From contig CAJXRD010000021.1 of the NCBI GenBank assembly GCA_913058295.1, positions 1 through 45,592 of the forward strand: 45,592 nucleotides of DNA, written 5' to 3'. Numbering within the stretch: position 1 is the stretch's first letter; each line of letters opens with the position of its first letter. The translations under genes were made by a program, and so were the position numbers. Of the stretch, positions 2,022-29,843 are shown piece after piece. Below the pieces are notes generated by a model. It saw only the letters and a list, made by a program, of their open reading frames with translations, did not search any database and was not told the DNA's origin. The DNA comes from an uncultured Flavobacteriales bacterium (GTDB lineage Bacteria > Bacteroidota > Bacteroidia > Flavobacteriales > Flavobacteriaceae).

Positions 2022-4469
2022 CTACTTCCGTCTAAACACCTTCTTCACCCGCTTTAAAAGAGACGGTTTCTTTCCATTTTCATGATACCCCTTCCCATAA
2101 CTTCCATAGCCATAACCGTATCCATATCCATAACCATATTTCGCTTTTTCTTCAAAGAAATTTAACACAAAACTTATATTAGACACCTCTCCAGTTTTAT
2201 ATTTATCATTAATAAAATTAAACATACCTCTTTTGGTATAATTCTGCCTTACAATATACAAGGTTGCATCTGCAAATTTTGTTAACTCTAGCGCATCTGC
2301 AACCAAACCTATAGGAGGAGAATCTAGAATGATATAATCGTAAGTCTTTTTTAATTCGTTGATCAATTCCTCCATTCGTTCACCCATTAATAATTCGGAG
2401 GGGTTTGGAGGTATGGGACCAGAAGTAATCACATCTAAATGATCCACTTTTGTTTTTTGAATTATCTGATCCAAATTGGCATTATCTATTAAATAATTTA
2501 CCACTCCAATTTTATTATCAATTTCAAAATCTCCAAATATTTTAGGTTTTCGCAAATCCAAACCTACAATAACTGTCTTTTTATTACTTAAAGCAAAAAC
2601 AGAGGCAATATTAATAGAGCAAAATGTTTTTCCCTCACCACTAATAGAGGAAGTTAACAACACTGTCTTAGCACCTTCTAAACCCTGTCTTTTATAAATA
2701 AATTGAAGACTTGAGCGCAAACCTCTAAAAGCTTCTGCAACCGAAGATTTTGATTTATTAAAGACGACAAGCTTGTCATTACCTATTGCCTTTCCAATTA
2801 CACCCAAAACAGGTATTTTTGAAAGTTGCTCAATTTCTTTTATTTCAGAAATTTTAGTACTAAAAAAAACTTTTAAGAAAACAATCAAAAAAGGAATTAA
2901 CAGACCAAATATAAGAGCCATCATATTATTTAGTTGGGTATTGGGTCCAACCTTTCCTCCTCCCGTATCCTTTGCAGAATCTATCACTAGTACATCGCTT
3001 ACATTCGCGGCTTTAACTAAGCCTGCTTCACTTCGCTTGGCTAAAAATAAATTATATATCCCTTGGCTTAAATTATAGCGACGCTCAATTTTAAATAGCT
3101 CTTGTTGCTCTTTAGGAAGTTTCTGTATTTCAGATTCATAATTAGATATCTTATTTTCAATTATAGATATCTCATTATTTAATAATGCTTTAGAAGATTT
3201 TAAATTTTCTAACAACACCCTTTTAACCGCATCAATTTGTCTGTCAAGATCCTTAAAAACTGGCGCATCCTCTTTAAAGGTATATTCTAAACTAGAACGC
3301 TCTTCAGCTAATGTAATAATTTTCGAAACACTATTAACAACATTAGATTCGGTTATTCCTGCAACAGAAGGGGCAGGGATCTCTCGATAATCAGATCGAG
3401 TTTGCAAATAATTTTCTAATACGGAATAATAATTAAGTTGCCTATCAATATCATTTTTTTCAATATCTAAGGTATTTAATTTTAGACTTAAATTACTTCC
3501 TTCCTCGTCTAAATTATAGATAGCATTTTTACTTCTAAATTTATCTAAATCTTCTTCTACACTTAATAATTCTTTAGATTTCACTGTTAAGCTACTATCG
3601 ATAAACTGTATAGTTTTAGTTGCAAATAAATTTTTTCGTTCCAACATATTTTCACTTAATACATCAACAGATGTATTAAGATAATCTACTATTTTAAATT
3701 TGTTTTTATTAACTAAACTCAAACGCAAAGTTGAACTTCCATTTTTTTCGGGCTTAACTTTTATGCCCATATAATTTTTAACAATATTATCAAAATTGGA
3801 AAAACTAATATAATAAACTGAATTTTCTCGTGCCTTAATTTCAGGATTAGACAATAGAATTCCATTTAAAAAAGGGGTATTAATTTTTTGCCCTAATTTA
3901 AATTCTTTTGACAGCTCTTGTGCTTCAAAATATTTGGTTTTTTTCTCTTTGGTATGATAGTTTTGAAAAGTAAAATTTCTAGCTTCTTCAATTATTGTTG
4001 AAATTATAAAAGTGGTAGAATCAATAAAAGTTATCTTTAATTGTTTTCCTAATACTTGGTATTTACTAGTATCTATCTTTGCAAAAAATGGTGCTTTTTT
4101 GTATGCATCTATTTGTTTGTATTTTCCATCTTTTTTATAATTGATATAACTCTGTAACCTATCTACAACCTTTTCATTATGAGTACGAGACTTTAAAGTA
4201 ATCACTGCTGTATTTACTTTATCTGTAGTACCTCCCCAATTAAAAGTAAGACTAGTATTAGATGTGAAAAAAGGGTTTTGATCGTCTTTAATAGAAATCA
4301 TAGTATCTAAACTATAATCTGGTAATTTTCTTATATTAATGTAATATGCAATACTGTAAGATATTGCTAAAGAAATAACAAAAAGAGGCCAAAACCTTAA
4401 AAGTTTAAACAACAAGCCCTTAAAATCAAAGGTATTATGTGATTCTAATATTTCAAATTCTTCGCTCAT
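2022..4469 (-). CDS. wzc: Wzc-like polysaccharide co-polymerase / bacterial tyrosine kinase
   Basis: This 815-aa inner-membrane protein controls capsule or exopolysaccharide chain assembly with Wza. A Wzz-type region is bounded by membrane segments near 25-45 and 515-536, with a long periplasmic, partly coiled-coil part between (about 290-480). The cytoplasmic BY-kinase domain has Walker A SISGEGKT (608-615), Walker A' VIVGLDLRKP (633-642) and Walker B YIILDSPP (712-719). The C-terminus carries the expected autophosphorylated tyrosine cluster as an unusual YG dipeptide run: Tyr778, 780, 782, 784, 786, 788, 791 and 795, followed by a basic tail. The start codon directly follows the stop codon of the Wza-like gene with no gap, so the two are co-transcribed and probably translationally coupled. 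The heterogeneous interior is ordinary for the family. Confidence 0.93.
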   Translation of the reverse strand: MSEEFEILESHNTFDFKGLLFKLLRFWPLFVISLAISYSIAYYINIRKLPDYSLDTMISIKDDQNPFFTSNTSLTFNWGGTTDKVNTAVITLKSRTHNEKVVDRLQSYINYKKDGKYKQIDAYKKAPFFAKIDTSKYQVLGKQLKITFIDSTTFIISTIIEEARNFTFQNYHTKEKKTKYFEAQELSKEFKLGQKINTPFLNGILLSNPEIKARENSVYYISFSNFDNIVKNYMGIKVKPEKNGSSTLRLSLVNKNKFKIVDYLNTSVDVLSENMLERKNLFATKTIQFIDSSLTVKSKELLSVEEDLDKFRSKNAIYNLDEEGSNLSLKLNTLDIEKNDIDRQLNYYSVLENYLQTRSDYREIPAPSVAGITESNVVNSVSKIITLAEERSSLEYTFKEDAPVFKDLDRQIDAVKRVLLENLKSSKALLNNEISIIENKISNYESEIQKLPKEQQELFKIERRYNLSQGIYNLFLAKRSEAGLVKAANVSDVLVIDSAKDTGGGKVGPNTQLNNMMALIFGLLIPFLIVFLKVFFSTKISEIKEIEQLSKIPVLGVIGKAIGNDKLVVFNKSKSSVAEAFRGLRSSLQFIYKRQGLEGAKTVLLTSSISGEGKTFCSINIASVFALSNKKTVIVGLDLRKPKIFGDFEIDNKIGVVNYLIDNANLDQIIQKTKVDHLDVITSGPIPPNPSELLMGERMEELINELKKTYDYIILDSPPIGLVADALELTKFADATLYIVRQNYTKRGMFNFINDKYKTGEVSNISFVLNFFEEKAKYGYGYGYGYGYGSYGKGYHENGKKPSLLKRVKKVFRRK

Positions 4470-26926: not shown

Positions 26927-26977
26927 TATGTTAAAAATTCATTTAAATGTAACAATACTATTTTTAGTACGTCTATA
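26927..26977 (+). promoter_or_regulatory. ECF-type promoter A with upstream box
   Basis: TATGTTAAA (26927-26935), 12 nt, TGTAACA (26948-26954), 16 nt, GTCTATA (26971-26977, preceded by C to give CGTC). The AAC-bearing -35 and CGTC -10 fit ECF sigma factors. Copies B (27089) and C (29683) share the same layout. A predicted start near 26984 would give a transcript of about 100 nt ending at the hairpin 27051-27078. Confidence 0.6.
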
Positions 26978-26983
26978 AAGTAG

Positions 26984-27085
26984 AAATATTTCAAACTTTA
27001 CTGTGTGATTTTTACGTTGATGGTTAGTGTTAATAATCATGGTAAAGTCTCAAGCCCAAAGATAGCTCTTTGGGCTTGTTTGTTA
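26984..27085 (+). ncRNA. Predicted small RNA A
   Basis: A gene-free segment bounded by ECF-type promoter A and a 12-bp hairpin at 27051-27078. No reading frame of note is present. It is predicted from the promoter and terminator pair only; the 5' end is estimated and the U-tract (TTTGTT) is weak. GTTGATG at 27016-27022 is complementary to CATCAAC at 27187-27193 in the barrel-gene leader, which may be chance. Confidence 0.35.
27051..27078 (+). terminator. Strong hairpin, probable terminator of small RNA A
   Basis: A perfect 12-bp stem, CAAGCCCAAAGA and TCTTTGGGCTTG, with a TAGC loop (27063-27066), followed by TTTGTTAATA on the plus strand. It lies between two ECF-type promoters and about 130 bp upstream of the barrel gene, in the 309-bp gap 26902-27210, so it would insulate the barrel gene from promoter A. 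Confidence 0.65.
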
Positions 27086-27088
27086 ATA

Positions 27089-27139
27089 TATGTTAAAGTC
27101 TAATTTAGCTGTAACATTTTTTTTGGAGGATCGTCTTAT
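27089..27139 (+). promoter_or_regulatory. ECF-type promoter B of the outer-membrane barrel gene
   Basis: TATGTTAAA (27089-27097), 12 nt, TGTAACA (27110-27116), 16 nt, GTCTTAT (27133-27139, preceded by C to give CGTC). It lies 71 bp upstream of the barrel-gene ATG, giving a leader of about 65 nt. No TAnnTTTG element competes in this interval. Confidence 0.65.
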
Positions 27140-27210
27140 TTTTAATCAAAACAGCTACTTTTTTTAAATAGAATGAGCAAATAATTCATCAACAATCAAT
27201 CAATCAAAAA

Positions 27211-29655
27211 ATGAAACAGTTAATTACTCTTTTAGCAATAATGCTAAGCTTATCTACCTATGCATTAAACGATCCTGACCCAGAAAAAAACGGATCTATC
27301 ACAGGTTCTGTGATAGACAAAATCCTTCAAGAACCCCTACCCTATGTTTCCATAGTAATCCATGATTTAAATGGAGAAATTATTACGGGTGGAATTACAG
27401 ATGAAAACGGAAGCTTTATCATTGAAGGAATCCCTGAAGGTAAAAGCAATTTAACCATACAATATATTGGCTATAAAGCTTATAAAAATGAAATTGAAAT
27501 TTCTAAAAAATCTAGAAAACTAAGCCTTGGCAGAATTGAATTAGAAGAAGATATAGAATCTTTAGATGAAGTTGTTATAAGAGCTGAAACTTCTACCATT
27601 CAACAAAAAACAGATCGAAAAGTGATTACAGTTGGAAAGGATTTAGTAACGGCAGGTCCTACTGCTTCAGAACTAATGAATAACCTACCAACTGTAAATG
27701 TAAACCCACAAACGGGTGAAATTTCTATGCGAGGTAATAGCAATGTTCAAGTAATGGTAGATGGCAAATTAACCAATGTTCCAATTGCACAATTGCTAAA
27801 ACAAATTCCTTCTTCAGCTATAAAACAAGTGGAGTTAATAACGAATCCTTCTGCAAAATATAATCCTGAAGGAATGAGTGGAATTATAAATATTGTACTT
27901 CATAAAAATGTAAAACTTGGAATGAACGGTACAGCTAACGTTGGACTTACTTATGAAGAGCAAGCAAAATTTAATGCGTCTTTAGATTTAAATTACAGAA
28001 ATGGAAAATTTAATCTCTATGGAAACTATGCTAATAATATAGCTAAAAATGAAAATTATGGAAATATTTTCCGGCCAAATGATAATTCTGAGCAGCTATT
28101 TAATTTCCTAGATGACAATAAATCTAACTTATTTAAAATTGGACTTGATTTTTATTTAAATGAAAAGAATACAATCTCTTTCTTTACAACTCAAAATTTT
28201 TATGATGGAAAAACTACTGGTGTTACAGATATTTTCTATTATGACAATCCAGAATACGATCTAACACAAGATTTTATTAGTGATGGCAGTAATGTCTCCT
28301 CTAGCTATAACTTTGATTATAAATTAGATTTTGAAAAAGAAGGACATAATATAGAATTAGAAGCAGATTATAACGAATATGACAGTGAAGACGAAACTAT
28401 TTTTTATTTTTCTGGAGCTTCAGAAGTCCCTAATTATGAAGATTTCATAGATGTAGAAAGCGAACGAGTAACGGTTAATTTAGACTATGTAAACCCCTTA
28501 ACCGAAGATTCAAATTTAGAACTAGGAGCAGAAGCAAGACTATACAAAACCTTAAATGATTATCGTTCCACTGGATTTGCATATAACTCAAATGGAGAAT
28601 TAGTTTCAACTCCAGCCACAAAATTTAAATATTCTAGAGATATTTATTCCGCTTATGTTACTTACGGGAGAAACTATGACAAATGGTCTTACCAAGCTGG
28701 TGTTCGTGCAGAAACGGTAGAGGTTATAGCCGACACAAATGCAGTTAGATCTTTTGAAAATGATTATGTAGAATTTTATCCTTCTGCATTTGTCACTTAT
28801 ACTCCTTCAGAAAAGAATAATTATCAAGTTAGTTATAGTCGTCGTGTAGACCGTCCTGGAATTAGTCAAGTTAACCCAATTAGAGAATGGAGTACACCAT
28901 TAATTTCTTCTTTTGGAAATACAGAATTAGTACCACAATTCACCAACTCGATTGAAGCAAACTATACTAGAAAACTTGAAAAAGGAAGCATTACTGGTGG
29001 AGTATTTTATCGTGCAATTACCGATGAAATAAACAGAGCCGTTTTTATTGATCGAACAGATTATAATAAAGTAATACTAACTTTTGATAACTTCGATAAT
29101 ACCTCAGCTTATGGTTTTGAAATTTCAGCAAGTTACAAACCTACTAAATGGTGGAGTTTTAATACCAGTTTCGACTTGTATTCTCAAATACAAACTGGAA
29201 TTATAGAAAATTTAGAAGACACGGGTGATATTCCACCTACCGAAGAAAATATAATAATTGAAGAAACAGAAGTTGAAAATGTCGCTTGGAATTTTAGAAT
29301 GTTCAATAACTTTAAAGCTACAAAAAAATTAACCTTTTCAGCTTTCCTATTCTATAGAGGAGAAAATAAAGGTTTACAATTTGAAGTTGACCCTATGTAC
29401 TTTGTCAATTTAGGTGCAAGATATAGCCTATGGGATGATCGAGGAACGTTTAGTATTAATTATAATGATATTTTTAATACCATGGAATTTTCTTTTGAAG
29501 GTAGTAGCCCATATCCACAAGTTGGAGCGTTTAACTGGGAAAGCAATACTGTTTATGTTGGCTTATCCTACCGCTTTGGAGGAGGAAAATACCAAGCTAA
29601 ATCTAGAAAACGTAGAAATAATGACGAAAAATCTGGAGGTGGCGGATTGTTCTAA
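27211..29655 (+). CDS. Outer-membrane beta-barrel protein, TonB-receptor-like (OMP_b-brl_3 family)
   Basis: This 814-aa protein has a signal peptide (about 1-19), a CarboxypepD_reg-like domain (about 28-113, starting GSITGSVIDKILQEPLPYVS), a plug domain (about 130-230: LMNNLPTVNVNPQTGEISMRG, PSAKYNPEGMSGIINIVL) and a C-terminal barrel ending in alternating aromatic strands (NTVYVGLSYRFGG) plus a basic Gly-rich tail. The plug resembles TonB-dependent receptors, but no SusD partner is adjacent, so this is not a classic polysaccharide utilisation pair. The transported substrate, if any, is unknown. An ECF-type promoter drives it, and two further copies of that promoter flank it, suggesting envelope-stress or surface-signalling control. 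Confidence 0.88.
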   Translation: MKQLITLLAIMLSLSTYALNDPDPEKNGSITGSVIDKILQEPLPYVSIVIHDLNGEIITGGITDENGSFIIEGIPEGKSNLTIQYIGYKAYKNEIEISKKSRKLSLGRIELEEDIESLDEVVIRAETSTIQQKTDRKVITVGKDLVTAGPTASELMNNLPTVNVNPQTGEISMRGNSNVQVMVDGKLTNVPIAQLLKQIPSSAIKQVELITNPSAKYNPEGMSGIINIVLHKNVKLGMNGTANVGLTYEEQAKFNASLDLNYRNGKFNLYGNYANNIAKNENYGNIFRPNDNSEQLFNFLDDNKSNLFKIGLDFYLNEKNTISFFTTQNFYDGKTTGVTDIFYYDNPEYDLTQDFISDGSNVSSSYNFDYKLDFEKEGHNIELEADYNEYDSEDETIFYFSGASEVPNYEDFIDVESERVTVNLDYVNPLTEDSNLELGAEARLYKTLNDYRSTGFAYNSNGELVSTPATKFKYSRDIYSAYVTYGRNYDKWSYQAGVRAETVEVIADTNAVRSFENDYVEFYPSAFVTYTPSEKNNYQVSYSRRVDRPGISQVNPIREWSTPLISSFGNTELVPQFTNSIEANYTRKLEKGSITGGVFYRAITDEINRAVFIDRTDYNKVILTFDNFDNTSAYGFEISASYKPTKWWSFNTSFDLYSQIQTGIIENLEDTGDIPPTEENIIIEETEVENVAWNFRMFNNFKATKKLTFSAFLFYRGENKGLQFEVDPMYFVNLGARYSLWDDRGTFSINYNDIFNTMEFSFEGSSPYPQVGAFNWESNTVYVGLSYRFGGGKYQAKSRKRRNNDEKSGGGGLF

Positions 29656-29682
29656 AATTCTAAAAAAACAGGTTGTTATTCT

Positions 29683-29734
29683 TATGTTAAAATTACCTAA
29701 CAATTGTAACATGGCATAGTTATTACAGTCTATA
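29683..29734 (+). promoter_or_regulatory. ECF-type promoter C downstream of the barrel gene
   Basis: TATGTTAAA (29683-29691), 13 nt, TGTAACA (29705-29711), 16 nt, GTCTATA (29728-29734). It starts 28 bp after the barrel stop codon, with only the convergent FabH-like gene downstream, so its product should be a short RNA ending at the terminator 29804-29837. The -10 lacks the leading C seen in A and B. Confidence 0.55.
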
Positions 29735-29740
29735 TAGTAA

Positions 29741-29843
29741 CAGAAAGTTTATGATTTATTTGAATTAACCACTCTAAGGAATAAACAAAAAGTTAGTATT
29801 ATAAAAAGCTCCTTAAGCAATTGTTTAAGGGGCTTTTATTTTT
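29741..29843 (+). ncRNA. Predicted small RNA C
   Basis: Bounded by ECF-type promoter C and the strong terminator at 29804-29837; length about 100 nt, like predicted RNA A. ATGATTTATTTG at 29751-29762 could pair with 11 of 12 bases of CAAATAATTCAT (27178-27189) in the barrel-gene leader. The alternative is a 3' RNA processed from, or read through from, the barrel transcript. Confidence 0.35.
29804..29837. terminator. Bidirectional intrinsic terminator
   Basis: A 13-bp stem with one G-T pair, AAAAGCTCCTTAA (29804-29816) and TTAAGGGGCTTTT (29825-29837), followed by a T-run on the plus strand and by GCTTTTTAT on the minus strand. It serves the barrel gene or small RNA C on the plus strand and the FabH-like gene on the minus strand. 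Confidence 0.85.

Follow-up and report, generated by a model that had tools for sequence, protein, structure and literature searches.

Why should one outer-membrane barrel gene be accompanied by three matching promoters, two of which lead into sequence that holds no gene? The question arises in a stretch of 45,592 nucleotides from an uncultured member of the Flavobacteriaceae (contig CAJXRD010000021.1 of assembly GCA_913058295.1; 32.2% G+C), the whole of which was analysed and is called the window below. The gene (27211..29655, on the plus strand like every window feature located here) encodes 814 amino acids with domain matches to OMP_b-brl_3 and a carboxypeptidase-regulatory-like domain. An initial annotation read the arrangement as a single regulon, in which one extracytoplasmic function (ECF) sigma factor drives the barrel gene and two flanking small RNAs (sRNAs), here termed RNA A and RNA C. 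Comparing the locus with its relatives, we find predicted promoters that are conserved, two conserved candidate RNAs with terminator-like ends, co-variation in the stem of RNA A, and complementarity between RNA C and the leader of a susC gene, with some changes on both sides of the duplex. We consider it probable that these elements belong to a small envelope-control regulon, in which a sigma factor of family NF058625 and a second regulator would govern the barrel protein, an RNA C that represses SusC, and RNA A.

Each of the three sites combines the box TATGTTAAA, a gap of 12, 12 or 13 nt, the -35 element TGTAACA, a spacer of 16 nt and GTCT, just as the initial annotation had described them. 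At site A the box lies at 26927..26935 and the promoter at 26948..26976 (-35 at 26948-26954, -10 CGTCTAT at 26970-26976); at site B, which does stand upstream of the barrel gene, they lie at 27089..27097 and 27110..27138 (-35 at 27110-27116, -10 CGTCTTA at 27132-27138); and at site C at 29683..29691 and 29705..29733 (-35 at 29705-29711, -10 AGTCTAT at 29727-29733). The ECF hallmark of an AAC-containing -35 and a CGTC-like -10 element about 16 bp apart is present at A and B, while C has AGTC. Within the window, TGTAACA-N16-GTCT occurs three times against 0.05 expected, and none of 100 shuffles reached three or more. The motif also stands out when the assembly to which the window belongs (G000; 3,067,664 bases in 95 contigs, 97.6% complete) is scanned with and without the box: GTTAA-N13/14-KGYAACA-N14/16-GTCW matches the three window sites only (reversed control: 0), and the boxless WGTAACA-N15-MGTCWW matches 13 times against once for its reversed control. 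With TGTAACA-N15/17-GTCT there are 13 matches against 4. A fourth GTTAA-box site, on contig 9, falls outside the full pattern because its spacer is 17 nt. The variant WGTAAC-N17-CGTC, whose spacer is one base too long, was set aside, its 7 matches against 4 in the control being no reliable excess.

If these are promoters, which sigma factor would read them? Three of the 13 motif matches are the window sites, and another lies directly upstream of an ECF sigma gene on contig 43, whose product matches NF058625 (GFO_1088/PG0214) with 222.6 bits at a cut-off of 130. Thirty genomes were requested for an orthologue search and 29 were searchable; exactly one orthologue of this protein (E up to 1e-40) was found in 27 of them, preceded by GTAACA..CGTC in 26 of the 27. 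The likely sigma factor, on this pattern of conservation, is an autoregulated ECF factor of NF058625. Further matches lie before or near genes for a rhodanese, a TPR protein, three ABC ATPases, a CAAX protease and an M61 peptidase, and one more is on contig 45 (L118), so far as motif and neighbourhood go suggesting that the promoters form part of a recognisable ECF regulon. On contig 71 (L121) a match precedes two similar, tandem, tiny open frames (MRTLN..., about 30 amino acids). A different ECF sigma gene, at 3144-3668 of contig 72 (L087, L107, L108), is closely preceded by TGTAACC-N16-CGTCTA, which recurs nearby on the opposite strand and whose spacer is one base longer than that of the window sites.

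A search with the barrel protein provided 71 related loci, and a comparison of related loci, which the initial annotation had recommended, shows promoters A, B and a loosely defined C recurring. Promoter A is kept in all 21 copies in which RNA A lies upstream of the barrel gene, with the box, as GTTA[AT], 13-14 nt before the -35 element in 20. A strict pattern finds promoter B in 48 of 62 loci (a count that omits nine distant or fragmentary loci and L062, whose 5' end is absent); CGTAACA..GTC can be seen by eye in 13 of the remaining 14, and L065 has none. Promoter C was found in 26 of 28 loci carrying RNA C (some of which may be the same species) by a loose pattern run without a control. GTTAA stands 12-15 nt before its -35 element in 25 of the 28, the distance being 14 nt in nearly all.

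The box behaves differently from the promoter it accompanies: of 26 promoters of the sigma gene itself, none carries it. By this distribution it is a mark of a sub-regulon rather than of the sigma factor itself, and because it is missing there a second regulator probably acts at the boxed promoters, in line with the second factor suspected from the outset. In 43 of 61 barrel promoters GTTAA is present twice as a direct repeat, the two copies being 9-11 bp apart. Such repeats resemble the tandem sites of OmpR/PhoB-type response regulators. The proposal that the box forms a TGTTA...TAACA dyad with downstream sequence had to be dropped, since its TGTAACA half is the -35 element, which is present without a box at the sigma gene, and since the box in relatives is often a direct repeat.

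An indication of what the system might do comes from RNA C, predicted at 29740..29843 (ends taken from the -10 element and the terminator). Its positions 29748..29771 are perfectly complementary to the leader of a susC gene on a separate contig of the same genome (G000:C8:5-28), encoding a protein of 1107 amino acids with carboxypeptidase-regulatory-like, Plug and TonB-barrel domains. The pairing runs over 24 uninterrupted bases, from about -25 to -2, and stops one base before the start codon. Among the sampled genomes of the family, 37 of 249 contain the RNA C core (55 hits, against one in the control); many lie on the opposite strand and are leaders of SusC-like genes read in reverse, and a few lie in coding DNA or are unclassed. 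Two of the three hits in G000 are one site, since the susC leader spans a contig break. After the barrel gene itself, the core is found in 9 of the 71 loci. Both strong hairpins that had been noted after sites A and C are there; that of RNA C is terminator-like by sequence and fold (29804..29838), and the RNA as a whole folds with a z of -2.7, 2 of 200 shuffles being equally good. A permissive Rfam match to ncr1015 over RNA C (27 bits at a cut-off of 60, E 0.57) was judged to be chance.

In twelve genomes the cores are exact on both sides, and the 13 pairs that these supply match without interruption over 17-26 nt. The RNA C of the window matches the 12 other leaders over shorter lengths (14 nt in 11, 20 nt in one), since in its genome both partners differ at two positions. 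Another two-sided change is found in G082, and RNA C thereby shows by sequence the two traits of a trans-acting antisense sRNA, a 24-nt match to a separately encoded mRNA and, in the window genome and G082, changes in both partners. One-sided changes at one of these positions occur in the RNA in G041 and G272, leaving a G-U pair, and in the leader in G130b, leaving a mismatch. Extending the search to 17 further genomes with two mismatches allowed adds six clear cases with both partners (G056, G134, G185, G219, G234, G262) and a doubtful one (G083); G231 and G217 have RNA C only, and G068 and G116 are ambiguous. Both partners are found in 18 genomes, or 19 counting G083. G217, which belongs to the same genus as the window's genome and measures 2.2 Mb, carries an altered RNA-A-like core that runs straight on to the core of RNA C (L222, L315); the barrel gene is missing from between the two, as if it had been deleted. 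The two cores are 166-350 bp apart, too close for a barrel gene, in G219, G092 and G231 (L232, L233, L234).

RNA A, predicted at 26982..27084 (start from the -10 element, end from the terminator), folds more strikingly than RNA C. It consists of an invariant loop core, GTTGATGGTTAGTGTTAAT (27016..27034), within a stem, followed by a terminator-like hairpin (27051..27078) with compensatory pairs in the alignment. Its fold beats all 200 shuffles (z -5.7), and three relatives tried gave z values of -6.3 to -7.8. The core or a near copy occurs in 59 of the 71 loci, which together with the window make 60 copies. Most of the 12 loci without it have distant or incomplete barrel genes: eight are only 27-29% identical, L065 reaches 47% and L081 is incomplete, so that L043 and L054, at 55-60% identity, are the true exceptions. 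The RNAalifold program, applied to a MAFFT alignment of the 60 copies, recovered the terminator only. Stem 1 could not be aligned, and we therefore relied on an alignment-free swap of its arms. These differ among genomes yet pair with one another: arms from the same copy give -14.1 kcal/mol against -7.7 when swapped, and the difference persists when swapping is confined to upstream copies (-14.6 against -10.6) or downstream copies (-13.8 against -9.2 kcal/mol). Pairing falls below a z of -2 in 58 of 60 copies, and a copy's own arm is the best of all partners in 13 and among the top five in 38.

The 14-base core of RNA A gives 93 hits in 84 of the 249 family genomes, against three control hits. 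Not every hit is RNA A, because at least nine belong to another RNA that shares the loop. In this different RNA, seen in L244, L245, L246, L248, L250, L252, L254, L256 and L183, the loop (GATGGTTAGTGTTA) sits within a GGGAAGGAA hairpin, and the L244 copy stands after a gene for a protein with a DUF3347 match. Second copies of the core had been considered as targets, an idea we abandoned when, of 15 stretches inspected, 8 proved to be the other RNA and 7 looked like RNA A itself. At gathering thresholds Rfam has nothing in the window, in nine loci related to it or in eight of the loci with the loop-sharing RNA's copies of the core (L252 not included). A permissive DicF match in L183 (20.6 bits at a cut-off of 48) was judged to be chance. 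A megablast search against plasmids gave no match. One might speculate that UUGAUGGUUAGUGUUA, as an invariant apical loop, works as a transferable unit of regulation, carried by two or more RNAs whose stems are unrelated (the barrel-linked RNA A and the RNA that follows a DUF3347-type gene), and that by this means a bacterium without detectable Hfq feeds several inputs to one common RNA or protein partner and feeds back on its own sigma factor; on present indications we hold this to be possible and rather doubtful.

A number of results weigh against the reading given at the outset, some of them concerning promoter C. Among the 26 loci that yielded this promoter, by a pattern that was loose and uncontrolled, only 5 have CGTC as the -10 element and 21 have another sequence, mostly AGTC in relatives, where the -35 element is mostly TGCAAC or TGAAAC. 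The idea that one ECF-type regulon would drive the barrel gene and both RNAs stands as far as the comparisons carry it (A in 21 of 21, B in 48 of 62 and a loose C in 26 of 28 loci, with RNA C antisense to a receptor leader), the use of the same sigma factor at C being the less sure part. Alternatively, NF058625 might serve A and B while a different ECF factor serves C, with the GTTAA-box regulator as their common tie: the genome has 17 Sigma70_r2 matches, and the box keeps a near-constant position at C. The window's site C, by contrast, has the same TGTAACA and spacing as A and B, and TGTAAC is found at C both there and in L202. We take a separate factor at C to be a real possibility, if the less probable one.

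RNA A raises a different difficulty, namely that its target is poorly defined. Searches of its own genome with the core (10-mers and 15-mers) gave no excess over control (8 against 6; 13 against 11); the leader hits include nrfH-like and cytochrome-oxidase-like genes. An 11-nt stretch in the leader of its own sigma gene, AACACTAACCA, is perfectly complementary to the core, and sigma leaders as a group pair with the core at a mean z of -1.42 (reversed core: -0.38), with just 10 of 28 falling below -2 (reversed core: 3 of 28). Barrel leaders were rejected as targets for want of any signal (mean z -0.09, 2 of 57 below -2). RNA A probably acts by pairing, and the sigma factor's own mRNA leader, which would imply negative feedback, is the best candidate target, weakly so on this complementarity. 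Might RNA A instead act in cis as part of the barrel mRNA, serving as leader or attenuator in the clade of the window and as a stability or termination element of the 3' untranslated region (UTR) elsewhere? It does stay beside the barrel gene: of 30 family hits inspected, 24 have that gene no farther than 1.5 kb away, and every one of the 60 copies adjoins it in a set that was selected for the barrel; in 39 of the 60 it lies downstream, 36 of them no more than 53 nt from the stop codon and 2 with a promoter-like site of their own. In L057 (Winogradskyella), near 3975-4041, RNA A follows the barrel gene and is preceded by a promoter-like TGTAACA..TGTC of its own, an arrangement that may lie between a 3' UTR form and an independent one. 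Against a cis element, RNA A in the window's clade comes with a promoter and a terminator of its own, after which the barrel gene has a separate promoter; five of the six core hits lacking a nearby barrel gene have CGTC upstream by eye, the sixth being the different RNA; and a strictly cis-acting element would not be expected to change sides of its gene, as RNA A does between the 21 upstream copies, each behind its own promoter, and the downstream ones. We accordingly regard a cis element as unlikely.

The pairing of RNA C with susC has its own weak points. The RNA C stem is poorly supported (-7.8 own against -6.6 swapped, z below -2 in 5 of 28), the second leader of G130 is mismatched with that genome's own RNA C, and the mean duplex energy over the 13 pairs hardly separates own (-30.9) from swapped (-29.2) partners, because most pairs are nearly identical. 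In the two-mismatch search 6 of the 17 genomes had susC leaders only, so the leader must be conserved for other reasons as well. As the direction of an effect is unreadable from complementarity alone, RNA C could also serve as a decoy or as the target of a sponge, or could activate susC by opening its leader, and an RNA-binding protein that counteracts pairing of this sort has been described in Bacteroides (accessible part of PMC11697453). Pairing so close to the start codon, with a single base between, should by expectation impede initiation, and that of FopS near a susC start codon represses translation, according to the same part of that source; a role other than repression therefore seems to us distinctly improbable. 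Could motifs and RNAs alike be artefacts of chance or of repeats? This is conceivable in so far as all evidence is of sequence, yet as regards conservation of the sequences it is refuted by the control counts (0 to 3 hits, where the real patterns gave 3, 55 and 93), by the co-variation of the arms and by the 24-nt antisense match, and it has next to no probability left.

From all this we infer transcription from the three sites, the sigma assignment (least surely for C), repression of SusC, a second regulator and a target for RNA A, which would combine as follows. The NF058625 factor, which would also drive its own gene through a promoter of this type, would transcribe the barrel gene together with RNA A and, probably, RNA C, while the second regulator would bind the GTTAA repeats roughly two helical turns upstream of the -35 element at the three promoters. 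With the system on, barrel protein and RNA C would be made; RNA C would pair with the leader (about -25 to -2) of an mRNA for a TonB receptor of the SusC/RagA type and block ribosome entry, and one outer-membrane barrel would therefore be made in place of another. RNA A might feed back negatively on the sigma mRNA.

If this is right, the coupling of an ECF factor to antisense regulation of outer-membrane receptors either evolved or was retained in a phylum in which circuits of this kind have been little explored. The locus would then be a testable counterpart, in the Flavobacteriaceae and in a genome without detectable Hfq, of the envelope circuit of sigma-E and its sRNAs, offering a candidate sigma factor, two RNA families unmatched in Rfam, one precise mRNA target and a box that points to a further regulator. 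We found no published description of either RNA in the open-licence literature, and Rfp11, discussed below, may prove to be one of them.

How does the proposed circuit compare with known ones? MicA and RybB use Hfq. For Hfq we found no match in G000, with a search that detects it in only 5 of 14 controls. In E. coli and Salmonella, the ECF factor sigma-E directs the synthesis of MicA and RybB, small RNAs that lower the levels of outer-membrane protein mRNAs (PMC1804206, as far as its accessible text goes). The parallel drawn by the initial annotation holds for the way the system would work, with an ECF-type regulon and an RNA C antisense to a receptor leader; it does not extend to relation by Rfam, there being no gathering match in the window. 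The two also differ in phylum, in RNA sequences and in seeds, and here the RNA genes flank the barrel gene and the promoters carry a second box. Another parallel is the SM6 regulon of Flavobacterium psychrophilum, which in the accessible part of its description includes the small RNA Rfp11 and an ECF/anti-sigma pair (PMC9723704). The likeness lies in ECF-type CGT-box promoters, one before a small RNA and one before the ECF/anti-sigma pair, and, by product names, in a rhodanese, an ABC ATPase and a TPR protein. That part of the source describes no SusC target for Rfp11. Also among the closest known systems are FopS and GibS of Bacteroides thetaiotaomicron, from the same phylum, small RNAs that pair near start codons, FopS with mRNAs of SusC-like receptors (accessible parts of PMC11697453 and PMC7366714). 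As the FopS sRNAs are described there as repressing SusC homologues by pairing near the start codon, the mode of action of RNA C would be of a known kind. In other traits the FopS description sets the two apart: FopS sRNAs have an ordinary sigma-ABfr promoter, 14 copies (one of the members being derived from a 3' UTR) and a single-stranded 5' seed, whereas RNA C has an ECF-like promoter, a single sRNA copy seen in the genome, a long internal seed and a place beside a barrel gene.

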